Shown here: positions 9,992-21,816 of the stretch, piece by piece
Layout of the letters: each line of letters begins with the position of its first letter
How positions within the stretch are numbered: position 1 is the first letter of the stretch
From: Gammaproteobacteria bacterium
GTDB taxonomy: Bacteria; Pseudomonadota; Gammaproteobacteria; Steroidobacterales; Steroidobacteraceae
Direction: 5' to 3'
Length of the DNA stretch: 64,000 bases
NCBI GenBank assembly: GCA_016874235.1
Contig: VGUJ01000001.1
Coordinates: forward strand, 62,001-126,000
Program-made: the position numbers and the translations under genes
Notes under the pieces: model-generated
Database searches by the model: none
The model's input: the letters and a program-made list of their open reading frames with translations, nothing else
What the model was told of the DNA's origin: nothing

Positions 9992-10028
9992 CACTATACT
10001 CAATTAGCACATCTTGGAGGTTTCGCCC

Positions 10029-10997
10029 GTGCTGTCCCTCAACGTCAACCCCAGAGCATTCGCATATGTCTTGATCAGCGTGACCGACATGGATCAAGCG
10101 CTTGATCTTTGGGCGACCCGTTTCGGTATGGAAGTCGTCGTGCGGCGACGGGGGGATGATCACGGACTCTCGCGTCTGTGGGGGCTTGCGGACGATGACA
10201 TCGTCGATCAGGCATTGCTGGTCACGCCGGGCCGACAACAGGGCGGCATACATCTCGTACGCTTTCGTCAGCCGGGCCCTGCTGTGCGTGAGGGTGCCGC
10301 GCCGACGGACCTCGTACCCAAGAGTGTCGACATCGCCGTCCATGACATCCAGTCCCGATTCGCAGAGCTCGAAGCCGCAGGTTTCAAGTTTCGTTCAAAG
10401 ATTGGGCGGTTCGAGACCGACGGTATCGTCGTGCATGAAGTTCATATGAACGGTCCCGAGTCCGTGAACATCGTATTCCTCGAGATGGAGGGCAAGCCTG
10501 AGCACGTCAGCATCAGAGGCTATGGAGTCGCGCCGCAAGTGATCGCCACCACGCCCGACAACCTTGGCGAAAAAGCGTTCTTCGAGAGCGTCCTCGATCT
10601 TGATGAAACCTCGTACCATCGTTTCTCTGGGCCAGAAGTGGAACGGACCATCGGATTACCTCCGGGTGGCGCGCTCGACGTACGGATTTTCGGCGATTCA
10701 GACTACGACTACGGACGCCTCGAAATCGTCCAGTACGAAGGCGTGAAGAGCAACAATCTTTATTCGCGCGCCCAGCCACCTGCGCGTGGTTTTTTATCTG
10801 TCTCGTTTTTCGTCAAAGATATTGGCGAGGCCCTCGACCGAGCGGCATCGCTTCAGCAATCACGCGGAATAGACGCCATGCGTGCACCGACGCGCGATCA
10901 TGGTGTGGTGGAAACGATTTTCGGACGGGTCCGAATGGCCACGCTGACATCACCCGCCGGGCTGGTCGTACTGCTCGTCGAACAGCCAAGGGGCTGA
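10029..10997 (+). CDS. VOC-family protein with two vicinal-oxygen-chelate modules
   Basis: A 322-aa protein made of two glyoxalase/dioxygenase-fold halves. The first, residues ~8-140, has AYVLISVTDMDQALDLW followed by KSVDIAVHDIQSRFAEL. The second, ~150-318, has VIATTPDNLGEKAFFESVL and FLSVSFFVKDIGEAL. This is the layout of extradiol-dioxygenase or 4-hydroxyphenylpyruvate-dioxygenase-like proteins, but I do not see a clean metal-binding His/His/Glu set and assign no reaction. Start: GTG 10029 sits 8 bases after a strong GGAGG, whereas the track start TTG 10014 lies upstream of that SD site. The gene converges on gloB with a 4-base gap. Confidence 0.78.
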   Translation: MLSLNVNPRAFAYVLISVTDMDQALDLWATRFGMEVVVRRRGDDHGLSRLWGLADDDIVDQALLVTPGRQQGGIHLVRFRQPGPAVREGAAPTDLVPKSVDIAVHDIQSRFAELEAAGFKFRSKIGRFETDGIVVHEVHMNGPESVNIVFLEMEGKPEHVSIRGYGVAPQVIATTPDNLGEKAFFESVLDLDETSYHRFSGPEVERTIGLPPGGALDVRIFGDSDYDYGRLEIVQYEGVKSNNLYSRAQPPARGFLSVSFFVKDIGEALDRAASLQQSRGIDAMRAPTRDHGVVETIFGRVRMATLTSPAGLVVLLVEQPRG

Positions 10998-11001
10998 TGC
11001 C

Positions 11002-11805
11002 TTACCAGCGATTACGCAGCTCGCGCAGTTTCAAAAAAATCTCTCGAGGGTCTGGCCGATCGCCTAGGTCCGGAAAAACTTTGCGCAAGCCCTCGATCAC
11101 GACCGGGTTTTGCAGTCTGAAAAATGTATTGATACGGCGTTCGTCACCCAGCGTCGTGACAGGTGCTTGCGCGCCATCCAAACCTTGCATGCTCGCCAGC
11201 AAAGTCGAGGCATCGCGGTTGTTCGGCTCTCGATCGAGGGTGAAGGCGAGGTTACGAGCGAGATAGTCGTGTCCTGGATGGATGCGCGTGGCATCCGGCA
11301 GCGGCGCGAGGCGTTGTACGAAGGTGTGATAGAGCAGTTCCGGATCGCCGCCGTTGTGACAATTGCCCGCGCCCGCGTTGAACAGTGTGTCTCCGCACAG
11401 CAGCTCGGGCGGGGCATAGGACGACCTTCCCCGCATGAGCAGGCAGAGGTGCGAGCGCGTGTGGCCAGGCGTATCCAGGCACTCGAGTTCCACGCTGTGC
11501 CCAACCCTGACGGTGTCTCCATGCGAGAGGCCGCGATCGAGACCCGGAATGCGTCTCCCTGCACCGGCATGCGCCAACACCTTCGCCCGCGTCGCCTCCC
11601 GAAGAGGTTCGTTGCCACCGATGTGGTCGCCGTGCTCGTGGGTGTTGAGGATCTGGGTGATGGTCCACCCGCGCGCCCGAGCGGTGTCGGCGCATAACCT
11701 CCAGTCGAGGGGGTCGACGGCGAGGGCCTCGCCGGTCTCTGCGCAAGCGATGAGATAGTGGTAGTTCCGCCACGCATTGGCTGGCCAGAGGCGTTCGATG
11801 ATCAT
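11002..11805 (-). CDS. gloB: Hydroxyacylglutathione hydrolase (glyoxalase II)
   Basis: Zinc-dependent thioesterase that hydrolyses S-D-lactoylglutathione and related glutathione thioesters. The metallo-beta-lactamase signature NTHEHGDHIGGN is near residue 55, followed by the conserved CLDTPGHTRSHLC, CGDTLFNAGAGNC and HPGHDYLARNLAFT. From ATG 11805 (MIIERLWPANAWRNYHYL) the protein is 267 aa, near the family's 250-260; the track start 11886 would add an unusual tail running into the pcs start. It is divergent from pcs, with 80 bases between the two start codons, so regulation may be shared. This is one of two glyoxalase-II-fold genes flanking pcs-mcr. Confidence 0.93.
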   Translation of the reverse strand: MIIERLWPANAWRNYHYLIACAETGEALAVDPLDWRLCADTARARGWTITQILNTHEHGDHIGGNEPLREATRAKVLAHAGAGRRIPGLDRGLSHGDTVRVGHSVELECLDTPGHTRSHLCLLMRGRSSYAPPELLCGDTLFNAGAGNCHNGGDPELLYHTFVQRLAPLPDATRIHPGHDYLARNLAFTLDREPNNRDASTLLASMQGLDGAQAPVTTLGDERRINTFFRLQNPVVIEGLRKVFPDLGDRPDPREIFLKLRELRNRW

Positions 11806-11885
11806 ATTTTGACAGTGAATTTTAACACGCATCTTTTCACATACTGCCGTGCTAGTCTGCTTTCGGGGGTCGGAGTGCGGCATCA

Positions 11886-14800
11886 ATGTCGAGTGTTAAC
11901 GGGTCCATGGACGCGGCCCCGACGCCCGTGGCGATTACGCCACCGTCGGCTTCCGTAAACCCCTTCGTCCACCGCGCTGCCTGGCAGGCTGCACGCGATG
12001 CGTGTGTGGCCGACCCGGGCGCGTTTCATGGCGATATCGCCAGTCGCGAAATTCATTGGTTCGAACCCAAGGTCGGCTCTCACGGCGCTTGGATCACCCG
12101 CGATCCCGAAGGGCGTTGGCACGGATTCGACGCTCGAACCGGCGATCCCGTCGACCCTTCTCTGCCTCAAAGTTATCGGCCATGGAGTCGCGGGCTCGAT
12201 GACTCCGAGGCGCCGTTCTATCGCTGGTTCAGCGATGCCCTGACGAACGCCTGCTTCAACGAAGTCGATCGACATGTCCTCGCCGGACACGGTGCTGAAG
12301 CGGCATTGTGGTTCGAGGGGGATCGGTGGGACCAGTCTCAGGACGGTGGACGCGGTGCTCCGGTCGTTTCTTATAGCGTCTCGCGTAAGCAGCTGATGCT
12401 CGAGGTGGCGCGGTGTGCGCTTGCGCTGCGCCAGCTCGGCCTCAAGACAGGTGATCGCATCGCGATCAACATGCCGAACATTCCCGAGCAGATCTATTGG
12501 ACCGAAGCCTGCAAGCGTCTGGGTATCGTCTACACGCCCGTGTTCGGCGGATTTAGCGATAAAACGCTGTCCGATCGCATTCACAACGCCGGTGCCCGCA
12601 TCGTCATCACGGCTGACGGCGGTTATCGCAACGCACAAATCGTCGCGTTCAAAGAGGCCTATACCGATCCGGCCCTCGATGGTTATGTACCTGCAGAGAC
12701 GGCCATCGCGGCGGTGACCCAAGCGCTCGAGTCCCTCGGCCTCGAAATGCTACACGCGAACGCCATCCTCGAGGGTGCGCGCAAGACCGTAGCCAATGAA
12801 ATTACCCTCGAACGTTCCGACGTGATGCGTGGCGTCGGTCGTGCTCTCGAGGGGATCGCAGGACTTTCGCCTTCTGCCGCCAGTCGAATTCGTACGGCCA
12901 TCGCCAGTGCCCTCGTGACGACGCCACCGCGAGTCGACACCGTCGTCGTCGTCAAACATGCTGGACAAGCCGACATCGTGTGGCGTCCGGAGCGAGATCG
13001 TTGGGCTCACTCACTCACCGACGCCGCAATGCAGATTTTGTTGGACGGAGCACGCAAGGCGGGCCATGCCGTCGCGAACGAAGCGCAACTGTTGGCGCTC
13101 GATGATCGCGCTTTCGTCGCAGCGATCTGGGCGACGGTTCCACCGGAGCCGCTCGACGCCGAATTCCCGATGTTTTTCATCTATACCTCGGGCTCGACGG
13201 GCAAACCCAAAGGCGTCGTGCACGTTCACGGTGGTTACGTCAGCGGTGTCGCCTACACCTTGCGCGTGGCGTTCGACGCTCGCGCCGGAGATGTGATGTA
13301 CGTGGTCGCCGATCCAGGCTGGATCACGGGACAGAGCTACATGATTTGCGGTGCGCTGACGACGCGCGTCACGACGGTGATTGCCGAGGGCGTGCCGGTC
13401 TTCCCGAGTGCTGGCCGCTTCGCGAGCATCATCGAGCGGTTGAAGGTCAATATCTTCAAAGCCGGCGTCACCTTCCTCAAAACAGTGATGACCGACCCGC
13501 AGAACGTCGAGGATGTCCGCGCGTACTCGCGCGCGAGCCTGCGTGTTGCGACGTTCTGCGCCGAACCCACTTCGCCGGTGGTTCAACAGTTCGGCATGGA
13601 GCTCGTCACGCCTTGGTATACCAATTCGTATTGGGCGACCGAGCACGGCGGCATCGTCTGGACGCACCTGTTCGGCAACGCGGACTTCCCGTTGCGCGCC
13701 GATGCCCACACCTATCCGCTACCGTGGATCATGGGCGACGTTTGGCTCGCTGATAGCGAGGCAGACGCGTCGGGTACGGTCGTTGCACGCGCGGCAGCGG
13801 TCGGCGAGAAAGGCGAAATCGTGATCGCAGCGCCGTTTCCGTATCTCTGCCGCACCATTTGGGGCGCGGAGGGAGACTTCAAAGTCGAGGGGCGCCGAGT
13901 CGTTCGTCAATGGCGCGGCGATTTCGAGCGATATCGAAAAACGTATTGGACTCGCTGGAAAGGAAAACTGGCTTACACGCAGGGTGACTTCGCGGTGAAG
14001 TACGCCGACGGCGGTTTCTCGTTGCATGGACGATCGGACGACGTGATTAACGTGTCAGGTCATCGACTCGGTACCGAAGAAATCGAAGGCGCCATCTTGC
14101 GCGACAAGCAGGTGAATCCGGATTCACCCGTCGGCAACGTCATCGTAGTCGGCGCGCCGCATGCACAAAAAGGGTTGACGCCACTCGCGTTCGTCCGGCC
14201 CGCCCCCGGCCGCAAGATTACCGCCGAAGATCGTCGACGACTCATTGAGACCGTTCGACAAGAAAAAGGCCAGGTTGCGATCCCGGAAGACTTCGTCGAA
14301 GTGACGCAGTTCCCAGAGACTCGCAGCGGCAAGTACATGCGACGCATGGTTCGCGCGCTGGTCGAAGGTCAGGAAGTCGGAGACACCTCGACGCTGCGTA
14401 ACCCCGAATCCATCGCCGAGCTCCGTAGTGCCATCGCCGAGTGGCAAGCGCGTCAGCGAGTGGCCGACGAGCAGCAACTCTTCGAAGACTTCCGTTATTT
14501 CCGAATTCATTATCACTCGCTCGCGACGCCCTCGATCGGCAAGCGTCGCTCAAAAAAGGCCGCGCTGCGTATCGCGGTGATCACGATCAACAACCCGCCG
14601 GTGAACGCGCTTAATGAGCGTGCACTCGATGAGCTCAATATCGTGATCGATCACGTGGCTCGACGTGATGACGTCAAGGCGGTGGTATTCACTGGACAGG
14701 GCACCTCGGCGTTCGTCGCCGGTGCCGACATTCGCCAGCTCTACGAAGACGCCCATACGCTCGATGAGGCGCTTCCGCTGCCGAACAACGCTCATCTCGC

Positions 14801-17381
14801 ATTTCGCAAGATCGAAGCGATGGATAAACCCGCGATCGCCGCCATCAACGGTGTGGCGCTCGGGGGTGGCATGGAGTTCGCGATGGCCTGTCATGTGCGC
14901 GTCGCCGAGCCACTCGCCACCTTCGGACAGCCTGAGGTTCGCCTCAATCTGTTGCCGGGATACGGCGGCACACAAAGATTGCCGAGACTGCTCGAGCAGG
15001 CGGGTCATCCGTCACCGATCGTGCGTTCTCTCGAGATCATTATGGGCGGCAGAACGCTCGAGGCTGCAGAAGTGCAGGCCGACGGATTACTGCACGCCGT
15101 GTCCGACGAGAACGAAGACGTCTTGGCGCTCGCGACACGACTCGCTCGCGAATATGTCGCTGCACCGGCCGGCCGCAATCTCGTCGCAAAGACCTTCGCG
15201 GCGCGCCGAGCGGCCAATGCCGCTTGGCAATCGGCAGGTCGCGCCGACTTCGTTGCCGCCATCGCCGATTCGGAAGTGCAGCGACTCCTCGCGCAGGCGC
15301 GTGCCGTCGGTCGCGGCCCAACGGCCGAACGGATTTTCGATGCTGTGAAGACGGGTTGGCATCAAGGCATCGGCGCAGGACTCGCTCGCGAGGCGCAGTT
15401 ATTCGCCGAAGCGATCGTCGATCCTCAAGGTGGCAAGGCGGGCATTCGAGCGTTCTTCGACAAGCAGAGCGCACCGTTACCGACGCGCCGCGCTGAAACA
15501 CCCCGACCAGAGAAGGTCGGAGACCTCGTCAAACGAGGCGAGTTGCTGCCGGTGGGCGCCGCATTCTTCCCTGGGCTGACGCCGCTGCCGACATGGCAAT
15601 ACGGTCATGCGGTCGTCAAAGACGAACGAACCGGCGCTCCAGCGCACGGCCTTCCTAAAAACGCCGAGCGGGAAATCATCGTTCCAGTGCCGACACCTGG
15701 CCCGAACGAGGCACTCGTGTATGTGTTGGCGTCCGAGGTCAACTTCAACGACATCTGGGCGATCACCGGCATCCCAGTTTCGCCTTTCGACAATCATGAT
15801 CTCGATTATCAGGTGACGGGCTCCGGCGGCGTCGCGCTGATCGCAGCGGTGGGCAGCGAGGTCAAACGAGAAGGGCGATTGAAAGTCGGCGATCTCGTCA
15901 CGGTGTACTCGGGGCAAAGTGACCTGCTCTCTCCGCTCGCAGCTCGCGATCCGATGTATGCAGGATTTTCGATTCAGGGATACGAAACTGACACCGGTAG
16001 TCATCAACAGTTTCTGCTCGTACAGGGACCGCAGCTACATGCGCTCCCCCCCGATCTCACGCTCGAGGCGGCAGGCTCCTACGTACTCAATCTCGGCACG
16101 GTCGTTAGAGCGCTCTTCACCACGCTGCAGATCGAGAGTGGGAAGACACTCTTCGTCGAAGGTGCAGCGACCGGTACCGGATTCGAAGCACTCAAGAGTG
16201 CTGCGCGTAATGGGCTCACGAGTGTGGGTCTGGTGTCGAGTTCGGAGCGCGCGACGTTCATTGCAGGTCACGGCGCAGCGGGCGCGATCAATCGACGCGA
16301 TCCGCGTTGGGCAAAAGCCTTTACGGCCGTTCCCGAAAGCGCGGCGGACATCGCGGCCTGGGAGCAGGCGGGTGAGCCCATTCTCAAAGAAATGCGTCAG
16401 CAAGCGGGTGGCCGACTTGCAGACTATGTGGTGTCGCATGCAGGACAGGAGTCCTTCCCACGGTCTTTCCAGCTCTTGGCTGAGAACGGCACGCTGACCT
16501 TCTACGGCGCGACGAGTGGCTACTGGTTCTCTTTCGTCGGTAAAAAAGGATCTGCGACCCCTGAAGACATGCTGCGTCGAGCGCGGTTGCGTGCCGGCGA
16601 GGCTGTGCTGCTTTATTACGGCGTCGGCGCACACGATCTACTCGATCCGGTCGGGCTCGAGGCGATCGAGGCGGTACGCAAAGCCGGTGGACGGTTGGTG
16701 GTGGCGACGGCCACCGACGCTCAGCGAGAATTCGTGCAGTCACTGGGTTATGGCGATGCGGTTCGCGGTGTCGTGTCCATCGAGGAAATCCGTCGTAAAG
16801 AAGGTGCGGACTTCGATTGGCCGTCGGCGCTTCCTGCGATGCCCGACTCGAAGAAAGACACGGTCCGATTCAAAGAGGCCGTGCGGCAATTTCAAGATCG
16901 CACCATGAAGCCCTTCGGCGGAGCGATCGGACGCTGGTTACGCTCACCGGACAATCCCCGCGGTTACCCAGATCTCATCATCGAGCGTGCCGGGCACGAC
17001 GCCCTCGCAGCCTCGACGTCGCTCGTCAAACCTTTTACGGGACGCGTCGTGTTTTGCGAGTCGATGGCGGGGCGCCGCTATACGTTCTATGCACCGCAGG
17101 TGTGGATGCGACAGCGACGAATCATCATGCCCACCGCCACCATTGCAGGAACCCATCTTTGCAACGCCTTCGAAGTTGCCCGCATGAACGACATGATCGC
17201 GGCGGGGCAACTCGAGGTCAGTCCACCCACCATCGTTCCGTGGGGCGACCTGCCGGCTGCACACCAGTCAATGTGGGACAACACTCACGCTGGAGCGAAT
17301 TACGTTGTTAACCATGCGCTGCCACGGATTGGGCTGCGCTCGCGCGATGAACTTTTCCAGGAATGGGGAGCGGCTCGATGA
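11886..17381 (+). CDS. pcs: Trifunctional propionyl-CoA synthase (acyl-CoA synthetase / enoyl-CoA hydratase / enoyl-CoA reductase fusion)
   Basis: Converts 3-hydroxypropionate, CoA, ATP and NADPH to propionyl-CoA through 3-hydroxypropionyl-CoA and acryloyl-CoA. Three domains are visible. An AMP-forming ligase spans ~1-880, with YTSGSTGKPKG near 433 and the catalytic lysine in PETRSGKYMRR near 816. A crotonase-fold hydratase spans ~890-1150, with glutamates in GGGMEFAMAC (~997) and FGQPEVRL (~1017), spaced as in classic enoyl-CoA hydratase. An MDR-type reductase spans ~1230-1831, with ASEVNFNDIWAITGIP and nucleotide-binding GAATGTG near 1426. Length (1831 aa), domain order and many remembered stretches match Chloroflexus Pcs (~1820 aa). 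The frame is unbroken. GGAG lies 10 bases before ATG. Its stop overlaps the mcr start as ATGA. Confidence 0.95.
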   Translation: MSSVNGSMDAAPTPVAITPPSASVNPFVHRAAWQAARDACVADPGAFHGDIASREIHWFEPKVGSHGAWITRDPEGRWHGFDARTGDPVDPSLPQSYRPWSRGLDDSEAPFYRWFSDALTNACFNEVDRHVLAGHGAEAALWFEGDRWDQSQDGGRGAPVVSYSVSRKQLMLEVARCALALRQLGLKTGDRIAINMPNIPEQIYWTEACKRLGIVYTPVFGGFSDKTLSDRIHNAGARIVITADGGYRNAQIVAFKEAYTDPALDGYVPAETAIAAVTQALESLGLEMLHANAILEGARKTVANEITLERSDVMRGVGRALEGIAGLSPSAASRIRTAIASALVTTPPRVDTVVVVKHAGQADIVWRPERDRWAHSLTDAAMQILLDGARKAGHAVANEAQLLALDDRAFVAAIWATVPPEPLDAEFPMFFIYTSGSTGKPKGVVHVHGGYVSGVAYTLRVAFDARAGDVMYVVADPGWITGQSYMICGALTTRVTTVIAEGVPVFPSAGRFASIIERLKVNIFKAGVTFLKTVMTDPQNVEDVRAYSRASLRVATFCAEPTSPVVQQFGMELVTPWYTNSYWATEHGGIVWTHLFGNADFPLRADAHTYPLPWIMGDVWLADSEADASGTVVARAAAVGEKGEIVIAAPFPYLCRTIWGAEGDFKVEGRRVVRQWRGDFERYRKTYWTRWKGKLAYTQGDFAVKYADGGFSLHGRSDDVINVSGHRLGTEEIEGAILRDKQVNPDSPVGNVIVVGAPHAQKGLTPLAFVRPAPGRKITAEDRRRLIETVRQEKGQVAIPEDFVEVTQFPETRSGKYMRRMVRALVEGQEVGDTSTLRNPESIAELRSAIAEWQARQRVADEQQLFEDFRYFRIHYHSLATPSIGKRRSKKAALRIAVITINNPPVNALNERALDELNIVIDHVARRDDVKAVVFTGQGTSAFVAGADIRQLYEDAHTLDEALPLPNNAHLAFRKIEAMDKPAIAAINGVALGGGMEFAMACHVRVAEPLATFGQPEVRLNLLPGYGGTQRLPRLLEQAGHPSPIVRSLEIIMGGRTLEAAEVQADGLLHAVSDENEDVLALATRLAREYVAAPAGRNLVAKTFAARRAANAAWQSAGRADFVAAIADSEVQRLLAQARAVGRGPTAERIFDAVKTGWHQGIGAGLAREAQLFAEAIVDPQGGKAGIRAFFDKQSAPLPTRRAETPRPEKVGDLVKRGELLPVGAAFFPGLTPLPTWQYGHAVVKDERTGAPAHGLPKNAEREIIVPVPTPGPNEALVYVLASEVNFNDIWAITGIPVSPFDNHDLDYQVTGSGGVALIAAVGSEVKREGRLKVGDLVTVYSGQSDLLSPLAARDPMYAGFSIQGYETDTGSHQQFLLVQGPQLHALPPDLTLEAAGSYVLNLGTVVRALFTTLQIESGKTLFVEGAATGTGFEALKSAARNGLTSVGLVSSSERATFIAGHGAAGAINRRDPRWAKAFTAVPESAADIAAWEQAGEPILKEMRQQAGGRLADYVVSHAGQESFPRSFQLLAENGTLTFYGATSGYWFSFVGKKGSATPEDMLRRARLRAGEAVLLYYGVGAHDLLDPVGLEAIEAVRKAGGRLVVATATDAQREFVQSLGYGDAVRGVVSIEEIRRKEGADFDWPSALPAMPDSKKDTVRFKEAVRQFQDRTMKPFGGAIGRWLRSPDNPRGYPDLIIERAGHDALAASTSLVKPFTGRVVFCESMAGRRYTFYAPQVWMRQRRIIMPTATIAGTHLCNAFEVARMNDMIAAGQLEVSPPTIVPWGDLPAAHQSMWDNTHAGANYVVNHALPRIGLRSRDELFQEWGAAR

Positions 17382-20300
17382 TCGTCAGGACGACCCAGGT
17401 CAAAAAGACTCAGAAATCGAAGACCAAGACCGCTGCGCCTAAACGTGCTGTAAGCAAAGCCAAGGCTAAACGCTCGCCGAAAAAGCCAGCGACCTCGACC
17501 GCACGACACGGCCGCTCGCGCCCACTGCGGCTCGCCGGAAAAGTGGCGCTCGTATCGGGAGCCGCCGGAAACATCGGCGAGGTGATCGTCCGGCGCTATC
17601 TCGAAGAAGGCGCCCGCGTCGTGATGGTGGGGCGAAACCGCACGAAGCTCGAGGCAGCGCGCGAGAAACTGCTCGCCAAAACCGGTGCGCCCGCGAGTCA
17701 TGCCTATGTTCTCGATTTTGATGCGTCGGACTCGGGACAGGCCCGATACGGCACCGAAGCAGTGATGCGTCAATTCGGTCGTATCGACATCCTCGTCAAT
17801 AACGCGGGCTCGGCAGGTCCTAAAGCACCTATCGAAAATCTACCGCTATCGCGTGAAGAACTCGATGCGATGCGTGCCGGCGGCGCGACCGACACCGAAA
17901 CCGTCGCCGATGCTGCAGGCAACCTGCTTGGTCTCAGCTGGAACATGGTCCGTGCGACCGCGCCTTATTTACAAGCCGGCGCCTCGATCATCAACATCTC
18001 CACGATTTTTTCGCGTACCAAATATTTTGGACGCGCGGCGTACGTTGTACCCAAGTCGGCCCTCAATGCTTTTTCGAAGCAGCTGGCGGTTCAGCTAGGT
18101 CAGCGTGGCATTCGCGTCAATACCGTGTACCCGGGGCCCATTGAGAGTCAGCGGATTCGTACGGTCTTCAAGGCGATGGATCAGCTGCGCAAAGCGCCAG
18201 ATGGTACGACGGCCAACGATTTCACCTCGACCATGGCACTTTCCAGAGCGACGCCTGAGACAGGGGCGACACACAGCTTTCCGAGTGTGGAGGATGTCGC
18301 CAATACCATCGTCTTTCTCGGTAGCGACGAATCCCAGGCCTTCAGCGCCCAAGGGTTCGAAGTCACCAACGGCATGCAGGTCATGCAAGAGTCCCGGTCG
18401 ACGTGGGTATCGCGACCCGAGCTTCGGACCGTCGATGGCACGGGATCAACCGTGCTCGTCGCTGCGGGTGATCAAGTCGCGGATGCTTTGATGATCGCTC
18501 GTATTCAAGCGAGCTGTGGTGCCCGAGTTCTTTTGGGGCTCGGAACGGAAGAGGCCGTTCAGGCCGCCGCCGCCGCTCTGCAAAACAGTGACGCCGACCG
18601 ACGCATCAAGCCCGTTCTCTTCGATCGCCATCGCCCCGACACGCTCGCGGTATCGCTTGCGTCGGTCGATCCGTCGCAAGGATTACACGGTGCCGTCGTG
18701 TTACCCGCTTTCGGCCACTGGCGTTTCAAAGCGCCGCTGTCGGAGGCGAGCGATTCGGATGTCGACGCTTTTTTGAAGGGCGAGCTCGCGGGCGCCATTG
18801 GTATCGCAAGAGAGCTCTCCCGTCTTTGGCACCGACTTGCGCCGGCTGGCGTCAGTCCGCGAATTATCTTCATGTCAAATGGCAGCGATGAATCCGGGGA
18901 TACCTACGCCGACATTCTTCGGGCGGGCATCGAGCAACTTGTTCGCGTCTGGCGTGACGAAAGTGAAACGCAAGTCAAATCCGGCGATCGTGCCGTGCTC
19001 GAATGGTCGAACCAGATTCTCCGCTGGTCGAATACCGAAGAAAACGGACTACTCTTCGCTGCCGCGCAGGCTGCTCGTTTGCTCTACACGAAGCGACGTG
19101 TACCGCAGGTGAATCTCTACATGCCTGCTGCGATTGTCGATGCGACGGGCTCCACGCGTCCGAACTTCGGCTGGATTGAATCGCTCATGGGCTTGCACCT
19201 CGGTAAGTGTGTGTTGATCACGGGGGGCTCGGCCGGCATTGGAGGCCAACTCGGCCGCTTGCTCGCGATCTCCGGCGCACGAGTGATGCTCACCGCCCGT
19301 CGCGAAAATCAGCTCATCGATCTGCGTGACAGCATCGTTCGAGAGCTCGAAGAAATCGGCTATAACCGAGCGCATGAGCGAGTACGGATTCTGGCGGACA
19401 TTGACGTCGCCGATGAAACAGCGCTGGTGAAATCGGTAGCCGCGACTCTGAAGGCCTTTGGCCGAATCGATTATCTGATCAACAACGCTGGAGTCGCCGG
19501 CGCGGAACAGATGGCAGTCGATTTGTTGCCTGAAGACTGGCGCAACACGCTGCACGCCAATCTGGTGTCGAACTATTCGCTCATCGAAAAAGTCGTACCG
19601 ATGATGAAGCAGCAGGGGTCGGGCTACATCCTCAATGTCAGTTCCTACTTTGGCGGCGAAAAGTATATCGCCGTGCCGTATCCGAACCGATCCGACTACG
19701 CCGTCTCAAAAGCCGGCCAGCGCGCCCTCGTCGAAAACCTTGCACGATTCGTAGGGCCTGAGATTCAAATCAACGCCATTGCGCCTGGACCTGTCGAAGG
19801 GCAGCGGCTCAAGGGCAAGGACGGCAAGGCGGGGCTCTTTGATCGACGCGCGAAGCTGATCCTTGAAAATAAGCGATTGAATCAGCTCCATGGTGCGGTG
19901 CTGAAAGCGCTCGCGGATGGCGCAACGCTCGACGCAGTCCTTGGCGCCATGTGCTCCAACGACATCGGTTTGCTGCAGTCGCCCGAGGTTCCAGCGGCGT
20001 TGCGCGACCTTAGCGTCAAATTGAAAACTGAACCTAATGGCTCAGACGAGCCCACCTACTCGTCCTTACATTTTTTGATGACGCGTTCGATAGCGACTCG
20101 GTTGATCGCGCGGTTGTGCAACGGCTGCTTGATGCCACAGCGTATCCATCATGATCTGGCTGAGCAGTGGATTCTCGACCTTCCCGTTCCGCCGGAGCCC
20201 TTCATCGATCCTGCCCGTATCGATATTGAGGCAGAGAAAATTCGGACGGGCGTGATCGGCATGCTGCATCTCAATCGCATGCCGACCGAAACGGATGTGG

Positions 20301-21163
20301 CGCTCGCCACGGTGTTCTTCATGGCCGACCGCGCAATCTCGGGCGAAACCTTCGAGCCCTCGGGTGGCTTACAACAGGAACGCACGATTACCGAGCGTGA
20401 ACTCTTCGGTCGTGCCAAGCCTGAGCGTGTACGCCGGATGGAAGGCGAGACGATCTGGCTCATCGGTGAGCATATGTCTGAACCGCTCGCCGCGGCCGCG
20501 AAGTTATTCCTGGCAGAGGGTCATGTGGGCAGTATCGTGATGCTGACGCGTACTGCGGCGGCTGGTGATGCCATCCGTTTCGCATTGGGCCGCGCGTTGG
20601 GCCACGACCGAATTTCCTACCTGACTGTCGGGGATGACCTCGAGGAGGGGATGGATACCGCGTTTGCCAACCATGGCCCGCCAGCGGCCGTGGTTTCCAC
20701 GCCGTTTGCGCCGATTCCGCGCGCGTTGTTTGGCATCGAAGGCAAGGACCATCTTGCAGCACCCGAGTTTTCTGCGCTCATTGAGATGAACCTCACACAT
20801 CATTTCCGTGTGGCACGGAAAGTATCCTTGTTCAAGGGCGCCCGACTCATTCTCACTTCGCCGGATGTCCCAGCCGGCGGGACGCTTGCGCAGTTTGCGA
20901 TGGCGAATTTCATCAAGACCACGCTGCATGCATTCACGGCGACACTCGGCGTCGAAAATGAGCGTCTACCGACGTCGGTACCGGTCAACCAGGTAAATTT
21001 GACGCGACGCATGCGGAGCGAGGAGCCGAGAGATGCGGCTGAACAAGCTGAGGAGTATCAACGCTACGCGCATGCCGTCTTGTTGGCGGCTGCGCCGATC
21101 GTCGAGGCACAGGAGAGTCGTTATCGAGCTCGAATCTACCGAGGGCTTGCGATCACGGTATGA
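17378..21163 (+). CDS. mcr: Bifunctional malonyl-CoA reductase (3-hydroxypropionate-forming)
   Basis: Reduces malonyl-CoA with two NADPH to 3-hydroxypropionate through malonate semialdehyde. It is a tandem of short-chain-dehydrogenase halves. Half 1 has SGAAGNIGE (~60) and a YVVPK active-site pair (~221); half 2 has ITGGSAGIGG (~613) and YAVSK (~773). In the Chloroflexus enzyme the N-half reduces the semialdehyde and the C-half reduces the thioester. The match to that ~1219-aa protein runs to the end (ANFIKTTLHAFTAT, then RGLAITV). Start ATG 17378 overlaps the pcs stop (ATGA) and has GGGGAG 7 bases upstream, so I prefer it to the track start 17363. An unusual basic extension of ~50 residues precedes the first Rossmann motif. 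Confidence 0.95.
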   Translation: MIVRTTQVKKTQKSKTKTAAPKRAVSKAKAKRSPKKPATSTARHGRSRPLRLAGKVALVSGAAGNIGEVIVRRYLEEGARVVMVGRNRTKLEAAREKLLAKTGAPASHAYVLDFDASDSGQARYGTEAVMRQFGRIDILVNNAGSAGPKAPIENLPLSREELDAMRAGGATDTETVADAAGNLLGLSWNMVRATAPYLQAGASIINISTIFSRTKYFGRAAYVVPKSALNAFSKQLAVQLGQRGIRVNTVYPGPIESQRIRTVFKAMDQLRKAPDGTTANDFTSTMALSRATPETGATHSFPSVEDVANTIVFLGSDESQAFSAQGFEVTNGMQVMQESRSTWVSRPELRTVDGTGSTVLVAAGDQVADALMIARIQASCGARVLLGLGTEEAVQAAAAALQNSDADRRIKPVLFDRHRPDTLAVSLASVDPSQGLHGAVVLPAFGHWRFKAPLSEASDSDVDAFLKGELAGAIGIARELSRLWHRLAPAGVSPRIIFMSNGSDESGDTYADILRAGIEQLVRVWRDESETQVKSGDRAVLEWSNQILRWSNTEENGLLFAAAQAARLLYTKRRVPQVNLYMPAAIVDATGSTRPNFGWIESLMGLHLGKCVLITGGSAGIGGQLGRLLAISGARVMLTARRENQLIDLRDSIVRELEEIGYNRAHERVRILADIDVADETALVKSVAATLKAFGRIDYLINNAGVAGAEQMAVDLLPEDWRNTLHANLVSNYSLIEKVVPMMKQQGSGYILNVSSYFGGEKYIAVPYPNRSDYAVSKAGQRALVENLARFVGPEIQINAIAPGPVEGQRLKGKDGKAGLFDRRAKLILENKRLNQLHGAVLKALADGATLDAVLGAMCSNDIGLLQSPEVPAALRDLSVKLKTEPNGSDEPTYSSLHFLMTRSIATRLIARLCNGCLMPQRIHHDLAEQWILDLPVPPEPFIDPARIDIEAEKIRTGVIGMLHLNRMPTETDVALATVFFMADRAISGETFEPSGGLQQERTITERELFGRAKPERVRRMEGETIWLIGEHMSEPLAAAAKLFLAEGHVGSIVMLTRTAAAGDAIRFALGRALGHDRISYLTVGDDLEEGMDTAFANHGPPAAVVSTPFAPIPRALFGIEGKDHLAAPEFSALIEMNLTHHFRVARKVSLFKGARLILTSPDVPAGGTLAQFAMANFIKTTLHAFTATLGVENERLPTSVPVNQVNLTRRMRSEEPRDAAEQAEEYQRYAHAVLLAAAPIVEAQESRYRARIYRGLAITV

Positions 21164-21816
21164 AGATCGAAGTCGTTCCGGTGACAGCGTTTCAGCAGAA
21201 CTGCAGCATCGTATGGTGTGAGCGAACGAAGCGTGCTGCGGTGATTGATCCCGGAGGTGACCTCGATCGAATACTCGCGGTCGTTGAACGGCATGGCTTA
21301 AAACTCGAAAAGATTTTGATCACTCATGCGCATCTCGACCATGCAGGTGCAACCGCCGAGCTTTCTCGTCGATTCTCGCTACCGATCGAAGGGCCGCAAA
21401 CCGACGACCAGTTCTGGATCGATCAGATGCCCGCGCAAGCCAAGATGTTCGGCTTCCCACCGTCAGATCGATTTACACCCGATCGTTGGCTCGGCCAGGG
21501 CGACCGGGTCACGGTCGGCGATATCGAGTTTGAGGTGTTTCACTGCCCGGGGCATACGCCGGGGCACGTCGTTTTTTTTCAGCGCGAATCGCGATTTGCG
21601 ATCGTGGGTGACGTGATCTTCGCTGGATCCATCGGCCGTACCGACTTTCCACGCGGCAACCACGATCAGTTACTGCGATCGATCCGCCACAACTTGTTTC
21701 CACTTGGCGACGACGTGACCTTTTTACCGGGACACGGACCTACATCGACCTTTGGTGCGGAGCGGCGCAGTAATCCGTTTGTCGCCGATCGTTTATTTTT
21801 AGATCGTGTGCAGTGA
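21160..21816 (+). CDS. MBL-fold metallo-hydrolase, YcbL/glyoxalase-II-like
   Basis: A 218-aa metallo-beta-lactamase-fold hydrolase with the metal motif [11 protein letters not shown] near residue 52, [29 protein letters not shown] and [12 protein letters not shown]. It resembles the YcbL branch of type II glyoxalases, which lacks the C-terminal substrate domain of GloB. The start codon overlaps the mcr stop (ATGA), so it is translationally coupled to mcr and is the last gene of the pcs-mcr operon. That position suggests thioester hydrolysis or detoxification linked to the pathway, but this is inference. Its 3' end overlaps ctaB on the other strand by 18 bases. Confidence 0.88.

Follow-up and report, generated by a model that had tools for sequence, protein, structure and literature searches.

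A pcs-mcr operon in a photoheterotrophic member of the Steroidobacteraceae as a probable half 3-hydroxypropionate route run with the glyoxylate shunt

The window analysed here, a stretch of 64,000 nucleotides from a gammaproteobacterial genome (C1:62001-126000), carries an operon for propionyl-CoA synthase (Pcs) and malonyl-CoA reductase (Mcr), both signature enzymes of the 3-hydroxypropionate bi-cycle. Our reading, to which we assign a probability of roughly 0.7, is that pcs-mcr provides half of a 3-hydroxypropionate route, co-assimilating acetyl-CoA and bicarbonate, and is run together with the glyoxylate shunt in a photoheterotroph. This reading builds on features found in the DNA itself: the two enzymes, an operon for the downstream steps, a photosystem, and a putative operator common to pcs and the glyoxylate shunt and conserved in the genus. 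Table 1 gives the features of the locus.

Table 1. Features of the pcs-mcr locus, in positions of the window
Feature	Position	Strand	Basis
Divergent hydroxyacylglutathione hydrolase-like gene (probable start 11805)	11002..11805	-	HAGH_C and Lactamase_B
Extended first arm GTGAATTTTAACA, imperfect palindrome kept in the genus	11815..11827	+	Alignment of genus pcs upstream sequences
Putative operator, direct repeat TTTAACA-N7-TTTCACA	11821..11841	+	65 bp before the pcs start codon; genus conservation
pcs, predicted propionyl-CoA synthase (CoA ligase, enoyl-CoA hydratase and enoyl-CoA reductase fusion), 1831 aa	11886..17381	+	6eqo match, domains, motifs
mcr, predicted bifunctional malonyl-CoA reductase (two SDR halves), 1261 aa	17378..21163	+	8hi4 and 8hjw matches; motifs
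Metallo-beta-lactamase-fold hydrolase, glyoxalase-II-like (GloB-like), 218 aa	21160..21816	+	Lactamase_B E 3e-37

The host genome (1.81 Mb, 27 contigs, 95% complete) belongs to a genus placed by its depositors in the Steroidobacteraceae, and its Pcs shares 97% identity with the one from Steroidobacteraceae bacterium DEBay_Sum019D (L088). A first-pass annotation of this DNA was right to name a gammaproteobacterial host and wrong to call the chromosome otherwise ordinary, since the genome encodes PufL and PufM of the photosynthetic reaction centre, a pair of genes expected in an aerobic anoxygenic phototroph. A chlorophyllide-reductase-type subunit is encoded upstream of PufLM, in the part of the gene cluster that was read. 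By this gene content the host is a bacteriochlorophyll-type phototroph, and we take it to be a photoheterotroph.

The identities that the first-pass annotation gave to both proteins are borne out by end-to-end matches to solved enzymes. In a search against solved structures, residues 30-1830 of Pcs match 6eqo (a chain of 1850 aa, deposited as acetyl-CoA synthetase) with 2439 bits. The protein has AMP-binding, ECH and ADH_zinc_N domains; that is, an ACS-type ligase, a crotonase and an MDR reductase lie on a single chain of about 1800 aa. For Mcr, the matches to 8hi4 and 8hjw span residues 55-1266 with about 1200 bits, and there are half matches to 6k8s and 6k8v; an alternative in-frame mcr ATG at 17363 would give 1266 aa. 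The expected catalytic residues, which had also been reported as intact, are kept. In Pcs these are the ligase P-loop, the SGK lysine K816, crotonase E997 and E1017, and the reductase nucleotide-binding motif; in Mcr, YxxxK and S motifs are present in both extended SDR halves. Both proteins align with their Erythrobacter NAP1 counterparts without a difference in these motifs, and the same is true of Pcs against Chloroflexus islandicus and of Mcr against a Chloroflexaceae MAG. Identity to Erythrobacter sp. NAP1 is 61% for Pcs and 48% for Mcr. Judged from sequence, the products are a propionyl-CoA synthase and a bifunctional malonyl-CoA reductase.

A 4-bp ATGA overlap joins the pcs stop to the mcr start, in agreement with the head-to-tail, translationally coupled arrangement first described. 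A third gene is coupled to mcr in the same way, by an ATGA overlap with the mcr stop; it fell within the stretch covered by the first-pass annotation and went undescribed there. Its product scores 104 bits for GSH_gloB, below the equivalog cut-off of 200.8. Locus comparisons drew on the best 80 of 311 loci encoding Pcs relatives (from a scan with one genome per species), and among these 80 a GloB-like hydrolase gene 3' of mcr is found in the host's own genus only. The divergent hydrolase neighbour is kept in most genus members and is absent beside pcs in one of them (L040). A two-part VOC (glyoxalase-type) protein is encoded further upstream of pcs, at window positions 10014-10997; glyoxalase-type genes thus stand on both sides of the operon.

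With acetyl-CoA carboxylase presumed, a path from acetyl-CoA to succinyl-CoA can be drawn from the predicted host genes. Acetyl-CoA carboxylase, an enzyme expected for fatty-acid synthesis, would make malonyl-CoA; Mcr would reduce it to 3-hydroxypropionate with 2 NADPH, and Pcs would convert this into propionyl-CoA with 1 NADPH and the cleavage of ATP to AMP. Succinyl-CoA would then be formed by propionyl-CoA carboxylase, epimerase and mutase, whose genes lie elsewhere in the genome, so that on balance one acetyl unit and two bicarbonates would enter the TCA cycle. Such a half-route costs three NADPH and about four ATP equivalents per acetyl-CoA with two bicarbonates. The genes for the last steps form an mcm-meaB-pccB-pccA operon which, with a 157-aa VOC protein, lies on the same contig as pcs (C1:152797-160071). 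The VOC protein, for which no NCBIfam match was reported, is likely to be the methylmalonyl-CoA epimerase, given its Glyoxalase_4 match and adjacent position. Propionyl-CoA carboxylase, mutase and a likely epimerase, for which the first-pass annotation had proposed a genome search, are therefore present, and anaplerotic bicarbonate entry through propionyl-CoA is, among the roles it listed, the one favoured by the evidence. Besides methylmalonyl-CoA mutase, the host encodes another mutase that is of the fused IcmF type (a frame of about 1169 aa, G000:C2:95712-97415). In 15 sphingomonad-type loci among the best 80 of the 311, accA lies 3' of mcr, and this joining of accA to pcs-mcr points to acetyl-CoA/malonyl-CoA as the start. 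We infer a flux in this direction.

The host also possesses a glyoxylate shunt, encoded by malate synthase (aceB) followed by isocitrate lyase, with a divergent gene for an HTH-DUF3612 regulator. With isocitrate lyase and malate synthase both present, growth on C2 compounds does not depend on the pcs-mcr route, and we rejected the idea of pcs-mcr as a stand-in for a missing shunt. Beside the shunt, pcs-mcr would be a second path of acetyl-CoA assimilation, one that fixes bicarbonate at the expense of ATP and NADPH, in a cell able to gain ATP from light and with both operons under common control.

This common control is suggested by the putative operator. An alignment of the genus sequences upstream of pcs displays a conserved block, GTGAA-TTTT-CACA, followed by TTTCACA. 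The pattern TTTCACA-N7-TTTCACA, with at most one mismatch, has three sites in the 1.8 Mb host genome (about 0.15 are expected from composition): one before pcs and two overlapping ones between aceB and the divergent regulator gene. Across 24 genus genomes there are 54 matches, compared with 0 for a reversed-pattern control. We classed these by place and sequence, reading the sequence around many of them: 37 lie at aceB/regulator, 11 at pcs, 2 at sdh and 4 elsewhere, the last in line with the roughly 5 that base composition predicts for 58 Mb. The aceB/regulator sites were also checked in relatives. With up to two mismatches allowed, the operator is found in 12/12 genus pcs promoters and in 0/63 others, and in at most 0.05% of random stretches. 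Since L040, which has no divergent hydrolase gene beside pcs, keeps the operator in front of pcs, this element most likely belongs to pcs. A search for a sigma-70 consensus promoter before pcs found none.

The HTH-DUF3612 protein is the candidate reader of these sites. It is encoded divergently from aceB-aceA in the genus members read (C3:39923-41416 in the host; L123:9923-11416), is likely to be a glyoxylate-shunt regulator and, from the position of its gene, most likely reads both the pcs and the aceB operators. Its mode of action, repression or activation, and any link of the operon to light belong to what we infer rather than read. Its C-terminus is DUF3612, a Pfam domain of unknown function; a PDB sequence search with the protein matched the HTH only, and no paper that takes up DUF3612 together with glyoxylate was found in the literature searched. 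In its N-terminal HTH and its position beside glyoxylate-shunt genes, the protein resembles acyl-CoA-responsive regulators of the RamB/PccR type. It differs in its DUF3612 C-terminus and in an operator word unlike the RamB/PccR sites, and we do not claim membership of that type.

Further copies of the operator occur elsewhere. In two genus members (L171, G551:C500; L173, G144:C102) it stands before the succinate dehydrogenase operon, with a ygfZ-like gene on its other side, which suggests that the regulon may be wider. The host has a copy with two mismatches immediately ahead of a gene for pyruvate dehydrogenase E1 (aceE-like; L142, G000:C3:117164-117184). In two other genomes, G549 and G110 (L149, L154), aceA directly adjoins the regulator gene, without aceB.

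The presence of Pcs is closely tied to phototrophy. In a family sample of 150 genomes, Pcs occurs in 13 and PufLM in 27; PufLM is present in 13/13 genomes with Pcs and in 14/137 without (Fisher p = 1.1e-11), an association that is weaker when counted by genus (3/3 vs 6/22, p = 0.037). G110 has PufLM and lacks Pcs. Across phyla, PufLM was found in 48/51 Pcs genomes tested, the host's own included, with the family sample as the sole non-Pcs background. The three Pcs genomes without PufLM are two of Aneurinibacillus and one gemmatimonad MAG. A PpsR-type motif (TGTN12ACA) is not enriched before pcs (3/77 vs 3.5% background); we rejected PpsR/CrtJ control of pcs, and direct control together with the photosynthesis genes is unsupported. 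The link of pcs to light rests instead on the co-occurrence with PufLM and on daytime expression in a Porphyrobacter culture (ULC335), in which 3-hydroxypropionate gene transcripts rise by day and CO2 co-assimilation has been proposed (PMC10674011).

The tie to PufLM would also suit a redox valve, in which the pathway chiefly drains NADPH accumulating in the light and gains carbon incidentally; the established stoichiometry of three NADPH per acetyl-CoA fits such a drain. We nevertheless think this unlikely, because no photosynthesis-type regulatory motif precedes pcs and the control element found there, specific to the genus, is common to a carbon-assimilation operon.

The first-pass annotation held that these fused enzymes are known, outside Chloroflexales, from a few marine Proteobacteria. 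This is too narrow, as the 311 loci span Chloroflexales, Sphingomonadales, Gemmatimonadota, Rhodopila, Burkholderiales, Aneurinibacillus and others. In nearly all loci of Proteobacteria and Gemmatimonadota with enough flank (among the best 80 of 311), mcr is directly 3' of pcs; in the Chloroflexota loci read, the two genes are not adjacent, one MAG (L086) excepted, where mcr lies on the 5' side of pcs. Phyla are intermingled in the Pcs tree, which places gemmatimonad with gammaproteobacterial sequences and a Lysobacteraceae MAG with Rhodopila, a pattern that fits transfer between lineages. A MAG contig titled Klebsiella pneumoniae (L118) bears the pcs-mcr locus of the host's genus; the title is evidently wrong. 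In Aneurinibacillus (Bacillota; L067, L093), the flanks of a gene for full-length Pcs lack mcr and reaction-centre genes are absent, an instance of Pcs use outside phototrophy.

Aneurinibacillus bears on another possible role, namely that Pcs mainly assimilates 3-hydroxypropionate or acrylate made elsewhere (e.g. from DMSP), with Mcr secondary or reversed. Pcs alone would be enough for this, and in Aneurinibacillus it occurs with no Mcr close by and without a photosystem. Against it stand the near-constant coupling of mcr to pcs in proteobacterial and gemmatimonad loci, the 15 operons with accA, which point to malonyl-CoA as the start, and the operator in common with the glyoxylate shunt, which ties pcs to the use of acetyl-CoA. 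We regard this role as improbable in the host.

The host has both signature enzymes, and gene sets of this kind have led published surveys to infer autotrophy; for Luminiphilus, for example, an HP/HB cycle has been claimed (PMC9802188). A complete autotrophic cycle in the host, whether the bi-cycle or HP/HB, is nonetheless very improbable. The mesaconyl-CoA C1:C4 transferase (Mct, TIGR04253), one of the enzymes that the first-pass annotation proposed to look for, was not found: the best score in the host genome is 97 bits vs a cut-off of 725, and two Chloroflexus genomes used as positive controls gave 871 and 870. The 4-hydroxybutyryl-CoA dehydratase family (PF11794) is absent from the host and from all genomes of its genus that were sampled (a Sulfolobus control was positive), and the RuBisCO large subunit was found in 0/24 genus genomes. 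On these grounds we rejected a complete bi-cycle, an HP/HB cycle and a Calvin cycle, and the partial autotrophy once suggested for this operon finds no support in a bi-cycle, since Mct, specific to its second cycle, and RuBisCO were not found. At 95% completeness the chance that a gene was missed is small, and the genomes of relatives cut it much further.

In Rhodopila, mesaconyl-CoA hydratase-like and Mct-like (527 bits) genes lie near pcs-mcr (L095:18768-21117), and Mct scores reach 529-675 bits in several Burkholderiales and Gemmatimonas genomes; these organisms are candidates for a complete bi-cycle.

Least probable of all is a supply of propionyl-CoA for the biosynthesis of odd-chain lipids or polyesters: propionyl-CoA is the established product of the Pcs family, but a complete operon from propionyl-CoA to succinyl-CoA is present and the operator is common to pcs and the glyoxylate shunt.

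The half 3-hydroxypropionate route that we favour has its nearest parallel in the aerobic anoxygenic phototrophs Erythrobacter sp. NAP1 and Porphyrobacter, which share the fused enzymes, the gene order and PufLM-bearing hosts. They belong to a different lineage, however, many sphingomonad loci have accA where the host has the GloB-like hydrolase, and the operator in common with the glyoxylate shunt is found only in the host's genus (the 63 other pcs promoters lack it). With the Chloroflexus bi-cycle the host shares the Pcs and Mcr reactions, so that its first half can be drawn, whereas the Mct of that cycle is missing and pcs and mcr are adjacent, as they are not in the Chloroflexota loci read (L086 aside). 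Luminiphilus (Halieaceae; PMC9802188) is likewise a gammaproteobacterial phototroph with the capacity to turn malonyl-CoA into propionyl-CoA; it belongs to another family, and the sampled genomes of the host's genus lack the 4-hydroxybutyryl-CoA dehydratase family.

Published work already covers both enzymes, their occurrence in phototrophic Proteobacteria, and CO2 co-assimilation. The operator link between pcs and the glyoxylate shunt is new as far as the literature searched goes; that literature, with subscription journals mostly outside it, yielded no report of this link, of this lineage or of the Pcs-PufLM overlap, and earlier reports may exist.

The finding bears on the ways in which lake and ocean phototrophs that lack RuBisCO come to incorporate bicarbonate, and it cautions that Pcs and Mcr alone are insufficient for calling autotrophy. 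The overlap of Pcs with the reaction centre and the defined operator make the role of pcs-mcr directly testable. More tentatively, and at somewhat less than even odds in our estimate, Pcs-Mcr may serve phototrophy with type-II reaction centres as a widespread accessory module in different phyla, moved from lineage to lineage as a unit and often used where the remainder of the bi-cycle is lacking, and placed in the host's genus under a DUF3612 regulator, not recognised before, that would govern the glyoxylate shunt too, along with succinate dehydrogenase in some members. If this is true, cells would switch between an acetyl-CoA route that yields reductant and one that is paid for by light and fixes bicarbonate.
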